Part shown: positions 28,342 through 58,300 of the stretch, in pieces
Position numbering within the stretch: the stretch's first letter is position 1
How the letters are laid out: the number at the start of each line of letters is the position of its first letter
Assembly: GCA_037951105.1 (NCBI GenBank)
Contig: JBAMJV010008915.1
Location: 239,439 to 303,438 of the forward strand
Direction: 5' to 3'
DNA: 64,000 nucleotides
Source: Echinarachnius parma
Taxonomy: Eukaryota > Echinodermata > Echinoidea > Clypeasteroida > Echinarachniidae
The notes under the pieces: generated by a model
What the model was told of the DNA's origin: nothing
What the model saw: the letters and a program-made list of their open reading frames with translations, nothing else
The model's database searches: none
Program-made: the position numbers and the translations under genes

Positions 28342-28843
28342 TTAAAGGGATAGTCGAGTTATAACTCCACCATGCTCGAAAGGTATAAACAAACAATACA
28401 CACGACTAAGAAAAAAGCCTGTTATCATTCTAAAGAAGCCGTTAAAACTCACGGGCGCTCTCTAAAAAAGTCCTTGGTTTCAACATTTTTGATTACAAAA
28501 ATAATTGTGCATGTGATGTTTTATTTACATAATGATTAAATAGAGAGATCATCAACAAATATTAAAAAACATCTTTTGTACATTTTTGAAAAGTGTAAGC
28601 ATTTTTTTTTTCGACGTCTAGTTCAAAATTATTGAATTATTGTTGGGCCCTACAATAATTAAAAATAGTTTTTATTTATGGATACATGTATTTCAGCCGT
28701 CTCTGAACCGATTTTGATCAAATTAAGTTTTACTCTGTCCTTAAACTTGTATGCACTTTCAAATTTGACACTCAGTTTTTCATTATCTCACAAAAAAAGT
28801 TTTGTGTAGCGCCCTCTATACCAAAACTCAACTATCTCTTCAA
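28342..28843 (-). mobile_element. TTAA-ended element, copy 2, inverted
   Basis: This shares the ends (TTAAAGGGATAGTCGAGTT at left) and internal landmarks (GGGCGCTCTCTAAA, GCCGTCTCTGAACCGATTTT, TAGCGCCCTCTATACCAAA) with 26990-27553, in the opposite orientation. The right TTAA is mutated. The two copies could pair as a large inverted repeat around a loop of about 790 bp. Confidence 0.75.
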
Positions 28844-29169
28844 GTCTGTAACTATTTAGATTTGTTGAAACATTGCAAAGTAAATGAACATGAAAAATAC
28901 CCAGGTGATAACGCTGACCCAGTGACATAACGAAACTCAGTACAGTTATCAAACATGAGTACATTCTTCTGTTTGGTGGGGACATATTTTGTTTATTATT
29001 TGTTTATACACAAAAAAAAAAATGCTTCACTTCGATGATCCCTCGCACATAATTATACCTAAGTGGATTTTGTTTATGTCAGGTTTAATATTATAATAGA
29101 TTCTAACCAATACGAACATTGAATACTAAGGGCTTTCAGGGGCAAATACAGCGTCAGGGTTATATAGCA

Positions 29170-33629: not shown

Positions 33630-35193
33630 CTTGATGAGGGACGGAAAAGAGGAAACGGACATGCAGAAAATAATCAACTTATTGATTCTATAAAATGACG
33701 ACTGTCTCAACTCTTCAGTCTGATAATTAGAGCATGCACGGAAAATAGAATACATGTAGTATGCATGGGCAAACTTGCCAAGAGAAAAAGTAGTAGGCCC
33801 AAATTTTATGGCATATTTTTGTTTTTGATAAGTGTCAATATAATGGCAATATAACCCTTTTGATATACAAAGTAGACTATATTGACTAATTTTACATTTT
33901 AAAGACATATTCTTGATATATTTATTGTAAAAATCATTATTTGGTTTGTCAGAAAAGGTGAATATTTGGAAGATAAAGGGCTGACAAAATTCAATTATCA
34001 AATTAAAAAATATGTTAAGAGAATCATATATTGTTGGTAAAACCATTAGATTTGTTGTATTTTTAATTACTAATTAGCAGTATATTTTTAAAATGATGTG
34101 CTACAAGATTTTCAGAAGATTGAATTTCGAGTCTGAGGGTAACATTCTATATTAAAGTGTACATTACATATATATTTTGAGTTTTTGTAATAATCACTAT
34201 TTTTTCTTCTATAAATAAATGCAAAATAAATTGTATGTAAATATAATGCAACAACCAATATTTGTATGAAATGTGATTACGTGTTTATGTAAGATATTAC
34301 GGTTGACTTGCTTGAATGAGACAGTCATGTATTACATGCTCAAATAATTATCAGTAAAAATGTTATCATACAAATGTACAGAAAACATTACTTATTGTGT
34401 ATTGATTATATGTGTTTTATTTTGCTTTACTCAACAAAGAATGATGTAAACTTCAATTGAGATGTTCATGCAATGCATTTATTGCAACACATACATACAG
34501 AATTTACACAATGATATAAATACAATGTACATCATGCTGCATTACAAAGACTTTACTGCAATAAAAGTATATTAGAAACTGCATCATGCAGATTTGCAGA
34601 ATCTTCCTTATCTGAAATAATAATATACTTGATTTATATATAGCGCGTAATTAATATGAATCATCATCATCTCTAAGCATGTTACAATGATATTATTACT
34701 TATATTATTATAAAAGGGTTGCATAATGATATAATCTGGCAAGTATGGGGTAACCCCAAGATTAAAACTGGAAGTTAAAATGTGTGCATAGTATATTGAA
34801 TTATTAGTAGGTATATTACATAAACCTACATGCACACAAACACAGGCAAGCAGACACACATGCACGCAAACAGGCAGGCATGCACGCACGCACACACATA
34901 CACAAACACATCAGACACACATACAAACCCCCCCCAAAAAACACCATTGTTTAAAAACCCTCAAATTACAAGGCCCTGAACAGTTGATAGAGATGACACC
35001 CCCCCCCCCCCCCCCCCCCCCCCCAATAAGTTATAAACATAAATAAATACAAATTATTTTGGAGATGAAAAGCTGTTCTGCTCGCAATAGTAGTACTGGT
35101 CAAGGGTAAAGGGAAACAATGTCTGAACAACAATAAATATTTCTACTTTTTATGCAGCTTATGAGAAAAAAGTATAGCTCAAAAGTTTGTTTT
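33630..35193. other. 3' flank of middle gene, AT-rich, no gene seen
   Basis: Probable 3' UTR followed by AT-rich intergenic DNA. It includes a CA-rich stretch at about 34830-34925 and a C run of 26 at 34999-35024. Confidence 0.45.
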
Positions 35194-35245
35194 CTACGAA
35201 GCCCCATTGGGGACATGGATAAAAAAAAAATTCGCAGACGCTATC

Positions 35246-35576
35246 TCGTATGTACGACTTATTATGTCGTACGTACGACATATTATCTCGTACGTACAAC
35301 TTATTATCTCGTACGTACGACTTTTTATCTCGTACGTACGAGTGACTTATTATCTTGTACGTACGACTTATTATCTTGTACGTACGACTTATTATCTCGT
35401 ACGTACGACTTATTATCTCGTACGTACGACTTATTATCTTGTACGTACGACTTATTATGTCGTATGTACGACTTATTATGTCGTACGTACGACTTATTAT
35501 GTCGTACGTACGACTTATTATCTCATACGTATGACTTATTATCTCGTACGTACGACTTATTATCTCGTAAGACTTA
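35246..35576 (+). repeat. Left 21-bp repeat array of the foldback element
   Basis: The unit is CGTACGTACGACTTATTATC plus T, about 15 copies, with small changes (ATGTC for ATCTC) and one 3-bp insertion near 35341. The repeats translate as seven-residue periodic frames, which are artefacts. Confidence 0.95.
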
Positions 35577-35719
35577 AATGCATGCATGGTCAGTATACAG
35601 TCTCTGTGTGTACAGCGAGGCCACGAGGCAAGCGCTAAGCACTCATGTGATCCAGCTGCTAACGAGCAAGTGCATGGATGCAGTGCAGTGACAACCGTAC
35701 CGTACATGGCCCGAGCTTT

Positions 35720-36587
35720 GCTAAGCCAGCATGTGCAGAAATTGGATGGATACACGAAGACCATCAAGTGAGGGTAAAGACAGGAGGAGGGACCTGTCGA
35801 TTCTTGATTGACAGAAATGCCACATATGACAGCATTCTAGAGGAAGCCTCCAAATTGTTTTTCCCAGGAGGGGTCTCGAGAAGGGGTATCAAACTGAAGA
35901 ACGTAGATGTTGAACTCTGTGATTTCTGCATGAACAAACATCCAGCTACTCAAACTGTGGCCGAAACATATGAAATTTGTAAAACCGAACAGTATTCTTC
36001 GATGGTATATTTCCACCAAAAATAAGCAAAGTGTTCAAGTTTCTGCAGCAGTAGAAGTAGGGTCTGACATTCCTGAAAATGAATCCCAAACTACTTCTGA
36101 CACCTCTGACCACGCTGATCAGCCGGGACCTTCCAAAGACCCAGATTACACCGAAGCACAATGTAGGGTGAAAGACAAGTCTAATCACCATAGAATCCAT
36201 GAAATCCTACATGTAGATGCAGAAACACAAACTACCTCTTGTGACCATTCTAAGCCTGGACTCTATCCTGTGCTGGATGGAAACGTTTCCCTTTCTCAAG
36301 AGCGTATCAACATACTTTACACTAAACAGGAGGAGTCAATGTATAGTGGGCACACTATTACCGTGACAGGAAGCTCAAGATCTCAATGCCTATATGGACC
36401 ATTGGACGAAGATGGAAATCCATTAATAACAAATGACGACACTGATCCCCTCCAACACGGTTACCACGTTAGCGAAATTTCAAAAGGGAACGTGTGTTTT
36501 GTTCAGCACCACGCATCACACAATGCTATCGAAGATGAAGGACAATATGAATTTCCATCTAAATCAACTGCTGTAAACCCCGAGTAA
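35720..36587 (+). pseudogene. Captured gene fragment, HECT-associated N-terminal-like
   Basis: Reading from about 35720 in the frame of 35678-36025 gives EIGWIHEDHQVRVKTGGG, then LFFPGGVSRRG and VELCDF. This spacing (GGGTR-like, then LFFPxGxSxxG, then CDF) is the pattern I know from the N-terminal region of expanded uncharacterised proteins in fish, corals and echinoderms annotated as G2/M-phase-specific E3 ligase-like (HECT) proteins. The frame stops at 36023 after YFHQK. One base over, an open frame continues for about 190 codons to 36587 with acidic, Ser/Thr-rich sequence, so a single-base shift in the A run near 36015-36020 has broken it. No introns are apparent, and no HECT domain is present. 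The assignment is by pattern from memory. Confidence 0.55.
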
Positions 36588-36906
36588 TAAGTTGTACGTA
36601 CGAGATAATAAGTCGTACGTACGAGTTAATAAGTCGTACGTACGAGTTAATAAGTCGTACGTACGAGATAATAAGTCGTACGTACGAGATAATAAGTCGT
36701 ACGTACGAGATAATAAGTCTTACGTACGAGATAATAAGTCGTACGTACGACGTAATAAGTCGTACGTACGAGATAATAAGTCGTACGTACGACATAATAA
36801 GTCGTACGTACGAGATAATAAGTCGTACGTACGAGATAATAAGTCGTACGTACGAGATAATATGTCGTACGTACAACATAATAAGTCGTACGTACGAGAT
36901 AGCGTC
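36585..36906 (-). repeat. Right 21-bp repeat array of the foldback element
   Basis: Inverted copy of the left array, about 15 units reading AGATAATAAGTCGTACGTAC plus G on the plus strand. Confidence 0.95.
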
Positions 36907-36948
36907 TGTGAATTTTTTTTTATCCATGTCCCCAATGGGGCTTCGTAG

Positions 36949-38125
36949 TTTTCTATATGGTTTGTAGAATTCACAAGAACATAGAATTTTGTGCATTAAG
37001 TTATTTACACAAGACATAATTTACTTTGAAAGATGAACATATTAACGTTTTGTTCACTTAGTACATTAGCATCAACATAAACAACTATATAATATTCTAA
37101 TCTATACATTAAAATGCCAGGCCAGCTAGCTATTTCAATATTATGAAAAATAAAATATAAAAAGTTATAAAAAGAGATTATACAATATCTTTAATTACAT
37201 ACATGTTTTTCATGATTACTCTTTGTTACAAGTTAAGACTTGGATAATAATTCAAAGCGCTATGATATTCTATTTATGTGAATAGTGCTACATGTATATC
37301 CAATAATCATTATTACTATTACTATTTTATTATTATTAATATAAACTGAAAAGTCTATTAGGTTTATGATTAATAAAGATACAGGACAAAATGTAAACAA
37401 CACACACAAATGTGTGAGGAAATACAGACTTGAATGGAAATGCTAATGATGAAGATAAAATCGCAATGATGAGTGGTAAACACATACCAGTATAATCACA
37501 AATATATTTAACATATTAATAATTTATGAAATTTCTTACTTTCCTTTAAAAAATGTAGGTATTCAAACCGATCATATTAATTCAATATTTTCCACTTTCC
37601 TGAGTTTTTTGAATGCTGTGCAAGAAACACTCCTATACTTGTTAAATACATTGTGGAAAATATTAAGAATTATACAATGGATAAACAAAAAAAATCCCAT
37701 ATTCCACCAATGGTCCGGTCCTACAGGAAAAGTCAAATCATGACTGTTATACAAATTTGGTGGCCTAAAATTAGCACTAGATGGCCAAACTGGGAAGAAT
37801 AATTTACCTTAATTATTCAGAGACGGAAGTTTGGTTGCCCAATTGGGTGATCAGAATTCTGCATATTAAGTGATTTTTTGGCTTGCAGCTCATATTTGGC
37901 GGCCCCAAGGCAGTGCACATTTGGATTCATGATTATTTTCATTGCCTTTCATAGCAAAAAAGAGGAGTTATTAAATGAACACTATTCCTCTTCCCCATTC
38001 CCAAGTATGTAAATAATAATGAAATCAACCTGAGCATGTACAATAATTTGCATAAAAAGAAATTATCACCAGATATCAAATTCAAACAAAGAAAACATTT
38101 GATTTCATTTTTAATCAAACATTCT
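36949..38125. other. Intergenic, no gene seen
   Basis: AT-rich sequence with no coding frame or clear repeat boundaries. 37745-37880 resembles the GGGCAA/TTGCCC dispersed repeats seen at 8985 and 13845. Confidence 0.45.
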
Positions 38126-40318: not shown

Positions 40319-43300
40319 CTGACAAAAAAAAGACAAAATTATTACGAAAAGTTATACATTTTTTGGAATTAAATAATAAAACAATCAGTCTCCTTTTTTC
40401 TTGGCTAAAATTATGGTATGAAGGGGTCCCCCATGTAGCCGTTTCACACCAGGGCATTGTGGTCAATCACGATAAAGGAGATAATCACGCTGTCTGAATT
40501 ACCCAACTAACTATAAATATATCTTTCACATGTACACTGCCTGAATATTTTCATGAGTAGTCTAAATAAAAACATTTTGATTAAGGGGCACATCAAAATA
40601 ACTTTTGAACTAAATAATTTTGTTGGGGGCATTTGACATTAGCTAATTTTCGTTCCTCATAAACTTTGTGAGGTGTCCTTGTTTATTTGATGTTGTACCA
40701 GAGAAAATGAACAAGAATTAAAACAATATTCAAACTGAAAGACCTTATTGAACACAGAGTTCAGCTCCCTGAAGATGACATTTGCCTTGATGGACACATC
40801 CTTTTCAATTCAATAACAAATATCTCCGTAACTGAGGAGACATTTGAAAACTCAGATCCCATTTCATTCTTCAATTACCATAATCTAAACACTATGGCAT
40901 AAGAGAAATTTGCAAGCTCCAAGTGATTTTGGTTCAATTTGACATAATTAATGGATCACTTCATGATTACAAATATCTCCATATTCAGGTAGACATTTAA
41001 TAATTCAAAACCTGTTACCATAAGCCAACCAACAATGCATAAGAGAAGTGTGCAAGTTTCAATAAGTGATTTTGGTAGAATTTTACATAATTATTGGATC
41101 ACTTTAATTACAAATATCTTACTATTCAGGTAGACATTTAATCAATCAAAACCTGTTACCATAAGCCAAACAACAAGGCACAAGAGATATTTGATAGTGA
41201 TTTTCGTAGAATATGACAGAGCTAACGGATGGATCACTCTAATACTCACAACTGAAAGACCTCGTTGAATACAGGGTTGAGCTCCCTGAAGATAGCCTTG
41301 GTCTTGAAGGACAGCAACTTGTTGAAGGTCGTTTCAGGACTGATCGCAACGGTTACTTGGGGATCACTCAGGCCTAAAAGAAAGAAAGAATAAAAGGGCA
41401 TTAATTATTCAATCATATACAGACTATCAACGCGACATGATTTTTGTGACAATGCAATGAATGTTCAATGTTTTTATTTGGGTCTTTCAACTATCTTAAA
41501 GGACAGTACCCTGATTTCAGGACAGATAGTCAAACTATTACCTAAAACAAATCAATTAAATATAAATACATTCATCAATTCATATCACACTATTAACCCA
41601 CTTAGAAACTCTATATTAAGCGCTATTATTTGTATTATTATTATTATCATGGTGGGGGGGGGGGGGGGGGAAGTGCCCCTCCCCACCTCCTTACCATAAC
41701 CTTAGCCAACAGTAATTTCCAGAACTACCATATCCACGAAATGATGATTTTCCGGACTAACCGATCCCTTCCCTTTCCTACATACTGCTACTGCAAAACC
41801 ATTATTATCAAAGTTAACAAATATATTTTAAATAAAATGTAACTCACCATTTTTGTCTACTCCGGGTAGATCCACTGCATTGCACACTGTAAGGATTAAT
41901 ATTTAGAAATAATTATTTAAACAACAAAATGTACAAATTGGAAATTTGTATCTCAAGTATTAAATTTGGAATTAAGGCTCGTGCTTCATCTTTATTTGGT
42001 GAGAGGTTTGGTAAGGCTTGATGTAACATACGCATGTAAAATTGTGGATCATTGGATTGGGCTCAAGTCTTGTACGGGTTGGAGGTTTGAGCTTGTGCCA
42101 CTGTAATATGGATAATATTGCACCTAATTAATATTTTATATCATGATTTTATCATTGAACAATTGAAACTTTGAAATACAATCTTGTTTCATACGTTTCA
42201 CAGAGTACCATTGCTACATTAAAGGAAGTCTGGATGGGTAAACCAGACGCGCGGTGCCATCTTGCGAACGCCCTGCACAAGCTGCGTAATAAACATTGGC
42301 TTAGTGTCATGGAGTGCTAGCAAACTAGCCTACATGTATTTCAAAATGGCGACCTGTGGTGAAGCATGAATTCCCACGCTTGATGATTTCTAAGACTGAC
42401 CTTTGACCGAGAGAGACCTCATTCCCTCGGCGACCTCGTGGTAGGCCATCTTGATGCTGACGTGGCCCAGGTAGACTGCGGGGGTCGTCATGCACAGGGC
42501 CAGGTCCCGGTAGTAGTCCACCATCAGGCTGTGACTGGACCGCATGTTAGGTGCCAACTTCTCCCGAATGGCGCTGTACTCCGAGGTCCTTGTCTCGTTG
42601 GTCGTTAGCCCGATGCTTGGATTTTGGAAGTACTCTTCTAGCGAGTCAAGACTCTGTGGGAAATTATAAAGCAAACATCGATATTACAATGAATTGTGAC
42701 CTTTTGGTTAAAGGGGGTGTCTTCTGTTTGTTTCTCTTATGGTTTTTTGTTGTTTGTTTGCTCGATGCTCGGATGTTGGAATAGAGTGGAGAAGTGTGAT
42801 GTCATCTATGATGTCATAAACACCTTTTTTTTAGAATTTTCAAATTTGAACTTCATTTTCAGAAAGAGCATAACAAATAATGTCTAAATACTGAAAATTA
42901 ATTGAATATGTTAAGTATTGGCTGAGATATGCCCATCCAAATGATTTTTTTCCAATAGGCAATCAGTGTTCATAACTTTATGAACCAGTGCACTATAACA
43001 CTGATTGCCCATTGAAGTAAAATTAATTTGGATGGGCATATCTCAGCCAATACTTAACATATTCAATTGATTTTCTGTATTTAGACATTATTTTTCATGC
43101 TCTTTATGAAAATGAAGTTCAAATTTGAAAATTCGAAAAAAAAGATTTTTATGACGTCATGGCTTCTGTACTCTATACTCCTCTAAGGAGTCTAGACTCT
43201 GCAGAAAATGAGGAAATGTTGATGAATTTTGGCACAAATAGTTGACTTGATTTGTTAGGGGGGGGGGGTTTGACCCAATGACGATGTGGAGCATCGTCCA

Positions 43301-46300
43301 CGAGCCGCGTAGCGGCGAGGCGATTTTTTTTGTTGGCTATTTTGCTAAGGGGGGGGGAGTTTGACCCAATAACGATGCAGAGCATAGTCCACGAGCCGCG
43401 TAGCGGCGAGGCGATTTTTGGGGAGCTATTTTGCTAAGGGGGGGGGGGGGGTTTGACCCAAAGACGTTATGTTATGTAATTCTCCTTATATTTTTTGATA
43501 TCTCCGTTTGTTTTTGTTTTAATATTGTTTTTAGGGGCACGTGCCGACAGCCCCCCGGTCGCTACGCCACTGATTAGTCTGTAATGTTTAGGCATTCATG
43601 TATTATATTGATTAATCTCACTTCAGACAAAATATACAGGCACATATATCATAACACAAACAATAGTACCTAAATATAAAGAAAACGGTGTATATTAGTC
43701 CAATTTGGTAGCCTCTTCCACAATTACATGCGCCAGTATACTTTTTTTTTTTTTTTTTTACCCTCCCAAATATTGGGGGGGATGATAATACAGGCCATCC
43801 CCCCCACCTCAAATATTGGGGGGGGGATATATCCCCCCCATCCCCCCCGTGATCGACGCCCCTGCACTCTATTAACTACATTATCGTACATCATTTAAGT
43901 TTGTAAAACAAAATGTAAAAGAAAATGACAGATCTTACCTGCTGCAGCCTTTTGTAGTAGCCTGGTGGTCTACCGTCCTGGATCCTGGACTTGATGCTGG
44001 TCAGCAGGGTGTTCCAAAGGGCCTGGATCAGGCGTGGATAGATCTGGGGCATCAGCTGCTTATACAGGGTGCCCAGGTTGTCATCTATGTAGTCAAGGAG
44101 GCTCTCCATACACTGCAAATAAAGAGAAGGTTGAAAAGCTGGTATGGGACTATCTACCTGTATTAACCGATTGCCTTTTACATTCTGAAATATTCATAGA
44201 CTAGTTTGTATATACTGTAAGCCACCGATCTCCCCTTAGCAGCAAGTTAATATAGTATATGGAACTACCATCAAAAAAACTTTGTATGGGACACGGGCTA
44301 GGGAAAATTAACTGGTCTATGTGAGTCTGCAAGGTTGACCTACACAATTATGTCGCTAGCTAAAGTTCATCCTACCCCAACTAGCCCTCTAGAAATCCCC
44401 TAGGTACTAAAGAAGATCCCTACTCAGATGGAAGCTGGGGGACCATGATGATGAATATGATGAATCATTACGTTTCTCAAATGTTTATTTCAAATTGACA
44501 AAATGTTAACGGTTTGTACCTGTTCACAAGACACTCTCTTGTTGGGGTTGACAAACTTGTCCAGAATCTTGTTGACTTCCTGACTCATCTTGAAGGCAAT
44601 GCGTCGCTCCAGGTGAGACGACTTGTAGTGGATGTCCTCGCACGCCCTCGCTGTCAGACGATGTAGCGACGAGAGCGTAAGCGTGCCAGCCCGCGTGTTG
44701 CCGTGGTAACGCACAAGGGCCGCGCAGTTGGCCTCCCACTCCAGCAGGGCGGGCAGGTTGTCAAGGTAGCCACGCACATGCTCGATGTTGTTTAGGGTGA
44801 TGCAGAGCTGGAACAAGGAGGAAAACAAGTCTTATGAAATAAACCGGCTCATCAACTTCTCCAGGGATGTACTTGTGACTTGATCTACAATTTTTGGTCA
44901 ACTAGCAAAATCAGAATTTAAGATTAGGGTTAAGCGTTAGTGTAAGGGTTGGGTTTAGGGATGGGCATCATTTGAAGTTGTACAATGGAAATGGTAGACT
45001 GAATAAGATGTACTGGTAGACAAAATCAAATTAGACTACATCAGAAGAATATTCTAGACTATATTATTCATACATTATAGTTGCTTACCTTGTCTTTGAT
45101 ATCAAACTTGCCGGACCTGCTAGTCTTGTAGAAGCCATTGGCCTCCAGGATCCAATGAATCTTGCTTCGTCACAGATCAACTGAATAACAACACTGTTTT
45201 TTTTCTTCAGATTAAGCCCCTCGTAGGCCTAGTATAGACTACTTTGCTCTCATCTATAGTTTTAAAACCTATCCTGTCTTTGATGTAAAAAGTGCCAGTC
45301 CTCCTAGGCTTGTATAAAAACCATTAGCCAACAAGACAGTACTATTACGACGAAGACTATTCTACATCCCAACACTGGTGTTATTCTTGTTTATTGCTTA
45401 CCTTGTCTTTGATATCAAACTTGCCGGACCTGCTCGTCTTGTAGAAGCCATTGGCCTCCAGGATCCAATGAATCTTGCATGCGTACAGCTTGGCTCCATC
45501 ACAGATCAACTGAAGTGGAGATAAGTTTAAAGGGTGAGTTCAGTTGAGATTATTTTGTTTGATTTTTTCCTGCTATGCCGAGGGACAATGATTGTATGAT
45601 TGACATAAACTAGTCATATAAGCCCTTGGGCTAATATAAGTTCTAGGGATTTAATACGTTCCACACTAATATTGTGTGCATGTAGGAACAAATCAATAGA
45701 TCTAATTGTAAGAGTATTGGGATAAGAGTTGATTATTACACTCAAAGGGTTACATTTCCTTTAAAAATGGCTCATTTAACCTGTTACCTTTGAGAGTCGC
45801 CAAGGGGCTAATTGGTAAAATAAACTTACATCTGTGAGTTTGGTGATGGCCATACAGCGCGTGTTCGGGCAGTTGTATCCAATGCTTTGCCACTCTTGGG
45901 TAATCTAATATACAGATAGAGAAATACCAAACAAATAAGTATTAAGAACAAAGAAAAATAAGCAAACAGAATAAACCTAGGGAAATGGCACAAGTAAAAA
46001 AAAAAATAAGAAAAAGAATCCTGAATTGCTCATAAATTTGTATTGATAGCATACAAAAAAAGCATATATAGAAACAGTATCATCATGAAATCACTTTACC
46101 TTTAATCGATTTCAGGATAAGAATAAAGTTGTCAATTAAATTATGATATACATAAGCAACATTAAAAGAAATTTATTGGAAGGGATAAGATCATGAATTG
46201 ATAATAATAAGATGACATAGAGTGGTGAAGTGTGACGTCATCAAAAACCTATTTTTATAATTTCCAAATTTGAACTTCATTTTCCGAAAGAGCATAACAA

Positions 46301-55300: not shown

Positions 55301-58300
55301 AGATATCTGCATGAAGATTTTGAAAGAGGTGTTTAAATCAATCTCATTAGCTTGGCTTGTTTGCACATTCAGAGGAGGGAGATGTGGAAAGGAGGGGACC
55401 AGAGTCGGTTTAATCCAGACCGCTACTGACCAGCAGCGAAGGGTTGACCATGAGATGTGGTTTCAGCTCAGCTTGCTTGCACTTTCGGTTAGAAAATCAG
55501 TTAGAAATCGAGCAGACCTGACAGATATCTATATGAACATTTTGAAAGAGGTGTTTAATTATAATTAAATTGCTTTGCAATTTCATCTACAATTATATAA
55601 TATACAGACTTATCCAGCTAATTTCAGCTTATGACTAAATTATAACCATGCATTTTCAGCAGAAGATATGTTGTCATTGGGGTTATAAACATCTTAAATT
55701 GTTATCATCAACACGTAATACTTCTAATATGAGAGTACACATATCAGTGGTTCAGGGGGTTAAGGGAATAAGTAAGGAGATGTTGGTACATGTACATTTA
55801 AGGTTCAAATTGACAGCATACAAAGTATCAATTAGTATAGTTCTTAGCAGTTCAGGACGATGTTTGAAAGAAGTGAGACTGATTGGTTCAACTTACATAA
55901 TGTTTTGCGACAGCCTGCTAATGCCGTTCTGGACAGCGTACTGGTTGAGAATATTTTGGCTCAAAGCACTCAGCTTCCCATCCCATGGTGTGTCCTTGGA
56001 CTGGATGAAAGTAAATAAAAGAAAACAGTCAACATTCTGTATTAATTGTTATGAATAACACTGATGCATTCTTTCCCCAAATATTTCAAGAATTGTTTTA
56101 AAGCTACTGTCAAGTTCTTGAAGAACATTTTTGTTAAGCCAGAAATGGCACTGGAAACATTATTTACTGGGACACTGAATCATAAAGCCCCCCAAAATAG
56201 TAGAAACTAATACAAATTACATCTAGAATAATGTTTACAAAATTAATTTAATATTATAAAGATATATATACGAAACGTACCCTGATGTGCTTGCCGGCAT
56301 CATGCTTCTGTGCCGCTGTGACTATCTGGTGGTAGTAGGACAGTGCCTGCTCACTTCTCTCTTCTTGATTATCCAGCTGAAGAAAAAATAATAATATTAT
56401 GAATTGACAAAATAACATGATCATTGATGTATGGTATAATTTTCAAAAATATATAATCCTTTAAACAATAAATGTCCATACACATTTCATAACTCTCTTG
56501 ACATAATCTTGGTAATAAATTTGTAGGAATAATTAAATATAAGAAGTAAAAATGTATATGCGCTATATGAATTTAAATTATTATCATTATCATTATAAGT
56601 TGGATGTGTTACACCTTACCCCTTTCCTGATATACTGCATCTTGAGGTGGAGCCTGCCGGTCACCTGGGAGCTGATGACCTTTGCATGACCTCTCTGGAG
56701 TCGGTACCACTCCTCCGTTACCATGGCAGCCTCGATCTTCTCCAGGGGGATGATGACCTGGCCGAGAAAGTCGTCCGTGCACTTGTTGATCCCGTGCTTC
56801 ATGTGACGGAAAATGCTGCAGAGATAGCATAAAACAGGTATCTTAAATAGTAACTGATGAAGGAACAATTCTTTCTTCCACATAACTTGAGCTTTTATGA
56901 ACATCCAACTTTTATAGGACATAAAAAAGATAAACCTCTATGTTCTTCCTTCAATAAGTAATAAGTCACATGCAATGAGCTCCATATCTCTCAGTTAAAA
57001 AAAGAGAGATTTCATCCAGGCACCTTTGTGATACAAAGGTCAGTTGCCATTTTGTTCAATTTTGGAAACGGCAAAAGGCAACGATTAACTCACAGAGTTG
57101 AGATCGTGGACTTACTTCTTGATTCCAGCAATCTTGTGGTCTGATTCCATGCTCTTGCATGCATCCCAGAGGCTAGTCTCCTCATCCCTGTCCCACATGG
57201 TGATCCTCAGCTCTCCATCAACGTTGCCCAGCTCCCTACACATTTATGAAAGGAAAAACAGATGATAAACAAGCACATTTGGGTTGGAACTTGACCCAGT
57301 TTTTTTAATGAGATTTCATGGAAAATTTGAATATCTATTCATCCCTGTCCCACATGGTCATCTGTAGCTCTTTATCATCAGCTCCCTACAGATAAATGAA
57401 AGAAAAACATGATTATAAATGAGGAAACATTTGGGTTAGACCAACAAAGAGGACTAGACTACTTCTTGATTCCTGCAATATTGTGGCCTGACCATATGCT
57501 CTTGCAGGCATCCCAGAGGCTAGTCTCCTCATCCCTGTCCCACATGGTGATCCTCAGCTCTCCATCAACATTGCTTAGCTCCCTACAGACAAATGAAAGA
57601 AAAAACATAAGATTATAAATAAGGAAAACCTTTTTTCTAAAACAAAGAAGAGAACTAGCCTACTGCTTGATTCCAGCAATCTTGTGGTCTGACTCCATGC
57701 TCTTGCAAGCTTCCCAGAGACTCGTCAATTCATCACTGTCCCACATGGTGATCCTCAGCTCTCCATCAACATTGCTTAGCTCCCTAAATACAAATGGAAG
57801 GATAAATGAAGGTTAGTCAATTTATGTGTGTAAACAGAAATCTAAAATTATATTTCATGATATTTATATTAATATTCCAAATATGCGCTACCCACAACAG
57901 TATGATAATCTCTGTATAATATACTCACATATCAAAGGTCTCATTCCACACAGGGTGCAGTGTGGCAGTCTGACATGACGTTCTGTGGAGTGAATCCGCA
58001 TCCATGGAAGTACTGTGGGCGAAGATGGGACTCGCACTCGAATCAAAACTTTTGTGCCCCTTGTAGGGCAACTTTGGTGCCGCAAGGAGGAGGTCTTGCT
58101 GGATGGTCTGGTTTCCCGTTCCTGAAAAATGTATGCAAATAAAGAGACGAAATCATAGTATTTGTTGTATGACACATTACTCTCCTTTTCAAACTCCGAA
58201 CACCACTAACTCCCGGACAAGCCCCCAATATGTTACGGGCCAAGCCGTTTAATGTGCATCCCATGTTCTTCTTTGAATCAGAAACATGTACTACCATGAA

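Follow-up and report, generated by a model that had tools for sequence, protein, structure and literature searches.

Anatomy of the Element

We analyzed a stretch of 64,000 nucleotides from Echinarachnius parma (assembly GCA_037951105.1, contig JBAMJV010008915.1, positions 239,439 to 303,438 of the forward strand), hereafter the window, whose positions are counted from its first letter. A complete foldback-type DNA transposon occupies window positions 35195-36947, with matching ends, inverted arms and about 1 kb of other DNA between them (Table 1). An earlier note on the same sequence had placed this element at 35194..36948; the element was indeed present, but its true borders lie one base further in on both sides. 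The same note had described the terminal inverted repeats as exact and the ends as 57 bp long. The two ends were identical over their outermost 35 nt, but exactness over 57 bp was too strong a claim, as the length of an A-run and single bases differ beyond that point.

We recovered the proposed foldback build, with about 15 copies of a 21-bp unit on each side in opposite orientation, and the unit's core, TCGTACGTACGA, which the note had described as nearly palindromic, forms a palindrome of 12 bp. Inverted-repeat detection gave two pairs between the arms, one of 235 nt with 94% complementarity and one of 219 nt with 96%. In an end-to-end alignment of the arms, 342 of 367 positions agreed, and 8 columns held gaps. 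The two long adjoining frames that the note had reported in the inner DNA were present as well: frame 1 comprises 120 codons from 35663 and frame 2 comprises 217 codons ending at 36584, the second open part of the gene fragment extending a few bases into the right array. No match was obtained when the whole window was scanned for Rfam families and tRNAs.

Table 1. Coordinates of the parts of the foldback element and of its flanking duplications in the window.
Feature	Position	Strand	Remarks
Left 6-bp target-site duplication GTTTTC	35189..35194	.	Retained once in the joined-flank query that matches C3808 over the junction
Left terminal inverted repeat, starts TACGAAGCCCCATTGGGGACATGGATA	35195..35241	+	First 35 nt same as right end
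Left arm, 15.4 copies of the 21-bp unit, core TCGTACGTACGA	35242..35569	+	Tandem-repeat detection
Inner family segment, ~77 bp, 84-97% identity to other copies	35570..35647	+	Left side only in the window copy
Gene fragment, one frame break	35735..36584	+	First part to ~36003; second part open for 217 codons
Right arm, 15.3 copies of the 21-bp unit, inverted orientation	36581..36901	-	Tandem-repeat and inverted-repeat detection
Right terminal inverted repeat, ends ...GGGGCTTCGTA	36902..36947	-	Comparison of the two ends
Right 6-bp target-site duplication GTTTTC	36948..36953	.	Also borne out by the C3808 joined-flank match

Distribution of the Ends and Arrays in the Genome

The genome (1.2 Gb in 14,790 contigs) was searched with the 27-base end TACGAAGCCCCRTTGGGGACATGGATA, allowing up to 2 mismatches, and with the same pattern read backwards as a control. 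The end was found at 66 places, of which 35 are forward and 31 reverse; this count includes the two of the window, and 56 of the matches are exact. The control gave 0, and the ends of the window element are thus not due to chance. The note had held that the lack of any second copy of the ends would undo its reading; further copies were in fact numerous. A search with the whole element gave at least 88 matches, with the best 40 of 103 candidates scored. Paired ends also bound stretches on C1827 (12242-14291) and C12513 (15150-17961).

Arrays of the 21-bp unit were present at 36 of the 36 ends read inward, namely those of the fetched stretches and of the window, although this is partly by selection because most stretches were fetched through arm matches. 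Each end carried 3 to 23 units, for a total of 380 units with up to 5 mismatches, more diverged units being missed at this threshold. The consensus unit is ATCTCGTACGTACGACTTATT, and its five least conserved positions (3, 16, 17, 20, and 21) all fall outside the palindromic core. Nine two-ended copies were read, including that of the window, with lengths from 1,342 to 25,414 bp; the long inverted tandem-repeat arms and the variable middle are those of a foldback-type element. At least six of them (on contigs C5620, C1928, C8817, C9292, C2492, and C11924) have longer inner stretches in common. The window copy has retained about 77-95 bp of this family sequence on its left, by eye best shared with the C3294 copy; on the right, a search for the inner family motif gave nothing.

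Two copies are unusually built. On C2492 (66338-91751), 25.4 kb lie between paired family ends flanked by a 5-of-6 duplication, corresponding either to a very large element or to nested insertions. The two-ended copy of 9,060 bp on C9292 encloses a reverse transcriptase frame of 594 codons recognized by Pfam, which is a nested insertion.

Target-Site Duplications and Uninterrupted Sites

Seven of the nine two-ended copies, the window copy included, are flanked by an exact 6-bp duplication directly outside TA...TA (GTTTTC, CTTCTG, GACACT, CTCTAC, AGAATC, CGTAAG, and ATTATG). The termini are TA..TA in eight of the nine, the C3294 copy ending in TT. A reading of TA itself as a 2-bp target-site duplication, as in Tc1/mariner, was dropped since six further bases are repeated outside it.

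To reconstruct the window site we joined its flanks after removal of the element and of one duplication, placing the junction at 170/171 of the query. On contig C3808, 259 bases matched positions 1-260 of this query at 98% identity, with the junction inside the match. C3808 carries an uninterrupted counterpart of the window site and would most simply be the other allele. This contig also has 465 extra bp (C3808:196673-197137), about 90 bp to the right of the insertion point (window ~37041-37043), where the two matches overlap by 3 bases; this is apparently a second insertion/deletion difference between the contigs.

The copy on C9316 lies within a multicopy repeat, a candidate LINE-like element in our reading, whose frame becomes continuous once the flanks are joined. 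All of the 40 scored places (the best 40 of 563 candidates) matched these joined flanks over the junction at 95-96% identity, 39 of them over positions 1-300 and one over 1-299. The junction matches of the C3808 and C9316 sites thus indicate that the borders are right and that insertion was precise. Counterparts without the insertion, for which the note had advised a search, were found for both sites; the insertion of the window element seems to be recent.

Type of the Ends

IS3EU elements have TA..TA termini and target-site duplications that are usually of 6 bp (PMC10045372; this and the other papers cited here are cited from partial text). The ends of the window family correspond to those of IS3EU/GingerRoot in both respects, for eight of nine two-ended copies in their termini and for seven of nine in their exact duplication. 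We thus describe the family as having what appear to be IS3EU-type ends, but membership in IS3EU itself is not proven because no transposase was recognized and because the genomic matches to the rva_4 integrase core lie off the contigs with family ends. No autonomous partner was recognized among the stretches that were read. The non-autonomous transposon proposed in the earlier note accords with the further copies of its ends, the target-site duplication and the lack of a recognizable transposase among the frames tested.

One frame of the C9316 copy resembled a transposase C-terminus at first sight; it matched itself alone in the genome and was not used. Pfam also recognized a RING/B-box frame on the C14704 contig, perhaps outside the element, and an SRCR frame to the left of the C3294 copy.

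The DNA Carried Between the Arms

Besides its own place, the cargo DNA (35640-36586) had two matches in the genome, on contigs C5573 and C4389, each limited to 266 bp of it (35738-36003) at 95% identity. The rest of the cargo is private to the window copy, and no other family copy read has it, a result also obtained in the whole-genome search; the comparison of cargos between copies that had been recommended thus singled out the window copy. The two contigs with the 266-bp relative share 98% identity over 5.8 kb and perhaps represent two haplotypes. There, the relative has sharp edges and is itself frame-broken, and the 9 kb read around each of the two loci held no family end, even with 5 errors allowed. 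These regions (C5573:390500-399500 and C4389:56500-65500) also hold, within about 4 kb, a frame resembling a transposase N-terminus and a C2H2 zinc finger below the cut-off, so that the locus is perhaps a mosaic of fragments.

We shuffled the cargo 2000 times with its dinucleotides preserved. None of the shuffled sequences had a stop-free stretch as long as 217 codons (the largest had 206), but 270 had one of 120 codons, so that the length of frame 1 alone is no evidence. All 17 candidates of a genome search with the frame 1 protein were scored, which gave 13 matches: the query itself, two on C5573, two on C4389, and eight others with 37-38% identity. Copies of one relative, that on C554 included, lie on five contigs (C554, C573, C13618, C315, and C11761) and are at least 97% identical over 199 amino acids, within frames of 414-696 codons. 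The C554 relative, of which 601 bases were read, aligns to frame 1 and then directly to the start of frame 2; the two frames are therefore parts of one gene fragment, about 850 bp long and broken in frame once. From its sequence, this relative may belong to a multicopy gene or to a transposon-borne gene, or its copies may partly be haplotypes.

Pfam named neither of the two cargo frames nor the part of the C554 relative that was read, and frame 1 matched no solved structure up to E = 1. A predicted structure of the C554 relative, from an alignment of two rows, was too weak to be used (mean predicted local distance difference test score 54.9, predicted template modeling score 0.46). The earlier note had assigned the fragment to the N-terminal regions associated with HECT domains. 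A genome search for HECT (PF00632) gave at least 134 matches, with the best 129 of 226 candidates scored, and none of these was on a contig with a cargo relative; the label found no support here. On two contigs an rva_4 match and a weak HECT match occur 13-17 kb apart (C5134:66939-67463 and 84394-84603; C3521:14918-15445 and 28694-28942), a co-occurrence for which a link is neither supported nor excluded. What stands of the captured host gene piece that the note had seen here is a coding-like, frame-broken fragment between the arms, but its intact parent was not found, and it may derive from a host gene or from a transposon-borne one.

Discussion

With its family ends TACGAAGCCCC...GGGGCTTCGTA, 21-bp arrays, 6-bp duplications, other copies, uninterrupted site and private coding-like fragment, the window element is, in our opinion, probably a non-autonomous cut-and-paste foldback DNA transposon that is served in trans by a transposase of IS3EU/GingerRoot type and that has captured a gene fragment as passive cargo, in the manner of Pack-type elements. 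A DDE transposase of this type would bind the ends, make staggered target cuts of 6 bp and insert the element. The palindromic 21-bp units could serve as extra binding sites that raise the affinity and the specificity of the transposase, by analogy with Galileo, in which the internal repeats hold sites for the THAP domain of the transposase (PMC3688188). Repair or paired insertion would at some earlier time have exchanged the inner DNA for about 0.9 kb of foreign DNA with a gene piece, giving rise to a Pack-type element in which the frame-broken fragment would be passive cargo; tandem insertion followed by re-mobilization has been proposed for the gain of the middle in Pack-type elements (PMC8903248).

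Several observations weigh against this explanation. The C2492 duplication agrees in five of six bases and the C3294 copy has no duplication, making two of the nine two-ended copies, and C3808 may be a paralogous segment rather than an allele. The 66 end places may include two haplotypes of a single insertion, possibly in C2470 and C2967 (98.9% identity over 3.6 kb), as well as an assembly duplicate, given that C3756 has one left flank and left end twice (232094 and 238764); the second, near the contig end, is probably due to assembly duplication. Pfam recognized no transposase in the frames tested, a selection across the copies (two from that of the window, two from C9316, and seven from C9292, C2492, C14087, and C14704). 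The rva_4 integrase core, which we take to be a marker of IS3EU, had 34 matches in the genome, none of them on a contig with a family end, these contigs being short and most ends not having been read inward. As to the cargo, frame 2 alone matched only itself in the genome, and no direct parent of the fragment turned up there, its nearest DNA relative being 266 bp long and the next protein relatives being at about 38% identity. The argument for capture is thus built on the sharp borders of the cargo and its privacy, without a donor site.

The most serious alternative, which we nevertheless consider rather unlikely, is that the cargo is the remnant of an accessory gene borne by an autonomous transposon, of the same or of another family, instead of a captured host gene. 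The protein relatives are multicopy, as the nearly identical copies on five contigs with their long frames illustrate, and the DNA relative on C5573 is about 2.7 kb from an open frame with 48% relatives on C3561, C5134, and C5440; about 1 kb beyond those relatives, and on the same strand, lies an rva_4 core. On C13618, too, a cargo relative is located about 11 kb from an rva_4 match. However, the 9 kb around the C5573 and C4389 loci hold no family end, no contig with a family end other than that of the window has a cargo relative, no other family copy read has the cargo, and the near-identical contigs could be haplotypes.

The arms also bear on a possible role in RNA silencing. In prediction, 351 of the 375 bases of the left arm pair with the right arm when one strand is folded, and 340 do so when the other is. 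The cofold energy of the arms is -587 kcal/mol; three shuffled right arms gave -246, -242, and -244 kcal/mol. The element might accordingly be seen as a source of long double-stranded RNA feeding small-RNA silencing, but any long inverted repeat would pair likewise, and the cargo, in the loop and in a single orientation, would not become double-stranded; we regard this reading as improbable. The silencing of the parent family of the cargo, which had been suggested in the earlier note, does not follow from the anatomy: as the cargo is in the loop and the predicted pairing is arm to arm, the arm RNA, if transcribed, would address the transposon family and not the parent of the cargo.

Given their foldback arms, these elements might also be attributed to the Mutator superfamily, as Mutator-like elements (MULE). 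We consider this very improbable, as the target-site duplications of Mutator foldbacks are of about 9 bp, with 9 bp in the Mutator-like Tm1 (PMC3169594), whereas those found here are of 6 bp and the termini are TA..TA. That the element is an assembly artefact, a single array folded on itself or mis-joined, is hardly credible: some contigs do end in or near arrays and C3756 repeats one left flank, but there are 66 ends genome-wide, seven two-ended copies have different duplications and the window arms differ at 25 of 367 positions.

Among known systems, IS3EU/GingerRoot resembles the window family in its TA..TA termini and 6-bp duplications (PMC10045372). It differs in that no transposase was recognized in the window family and in that the available part of that paper makes no mention of arms of short tandem units for IS3EU (PMC10045372). 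Long inverted arms of tandem repeats around a variable middle are likewise present in foldback elements (Drosophila FB, Tetris, the sea urchin foldback) and in Galileo (PMC4079207). Their ends and units differ from those of the window family, and Galileo belongs to the P superfamily. The arms of the sea urchin foldbacks are presumably made of units of about 15 bp. Tm1, a Mutator/Foldback element of root-knot nematodes, also has foldback arms with short internal repeats and a low copy number, and its inner DNA can be transcribed, but its duplications are of 9 bp, its repeats of about 14 bp and its affinity is Mutator-like (PMC3169594). Plant Pack-TYPE elements (Pack-MULE and Pack-CACTA) are likewise non-autonomous, with a coding fragment between terminal inverted repeats (PMC8903248); in common with them, the window element shares its ends with other copies and has no recognized transposase, and its two long frames between the arms have no Pfam match. 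Pack-TYPE elements are described as found in plants in the available text (PMC8903248), whereas here the parent of the fragment was not found, a single copy carries it, and the gene family to which it is related is multicopy and possibly either host or transposon-borne.

We found no foldback or gene-carrying IS3EU family in the literature searched, which is weak evidence since most subscription journals, preprints, and Repbase lay outside its coverage; IS3EU and foldback co-occurred there merely in a table and a reference title of one paper, in its available part. We would thus only tentatively raise the possibility, doubtful as it stands, that this is the first described foldback, gene-carrying lineage of IS3EU/GingerRoot, a still-moving animal family that uses its 21-bp arrays as a transposase landing pad and swaps its middle for gene pieces.

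Most foldback arms described so far belong to Mutator-type elements, although there are exceptions, among them Galileo, a member of the P superfamily (PMC4079207). If the IS3EU-type ends hold, the foldback build would arise again in another superfamily and would go together with gene-fragment cargo outside plants. The filled and the empty site on two contigs provide a direct test of recent movement, and the copies with 3 to 23 units per end a test of the effect of array length on movement. Elements of this kind illustrate how pieces of genes can be shuffled by mobile DNA.

Apart from the element, the window has further tandem duplications at 40875-41187, 43258-43461, and 57380-57800, with units of 141, 91, and 201 bp in about two copies each.
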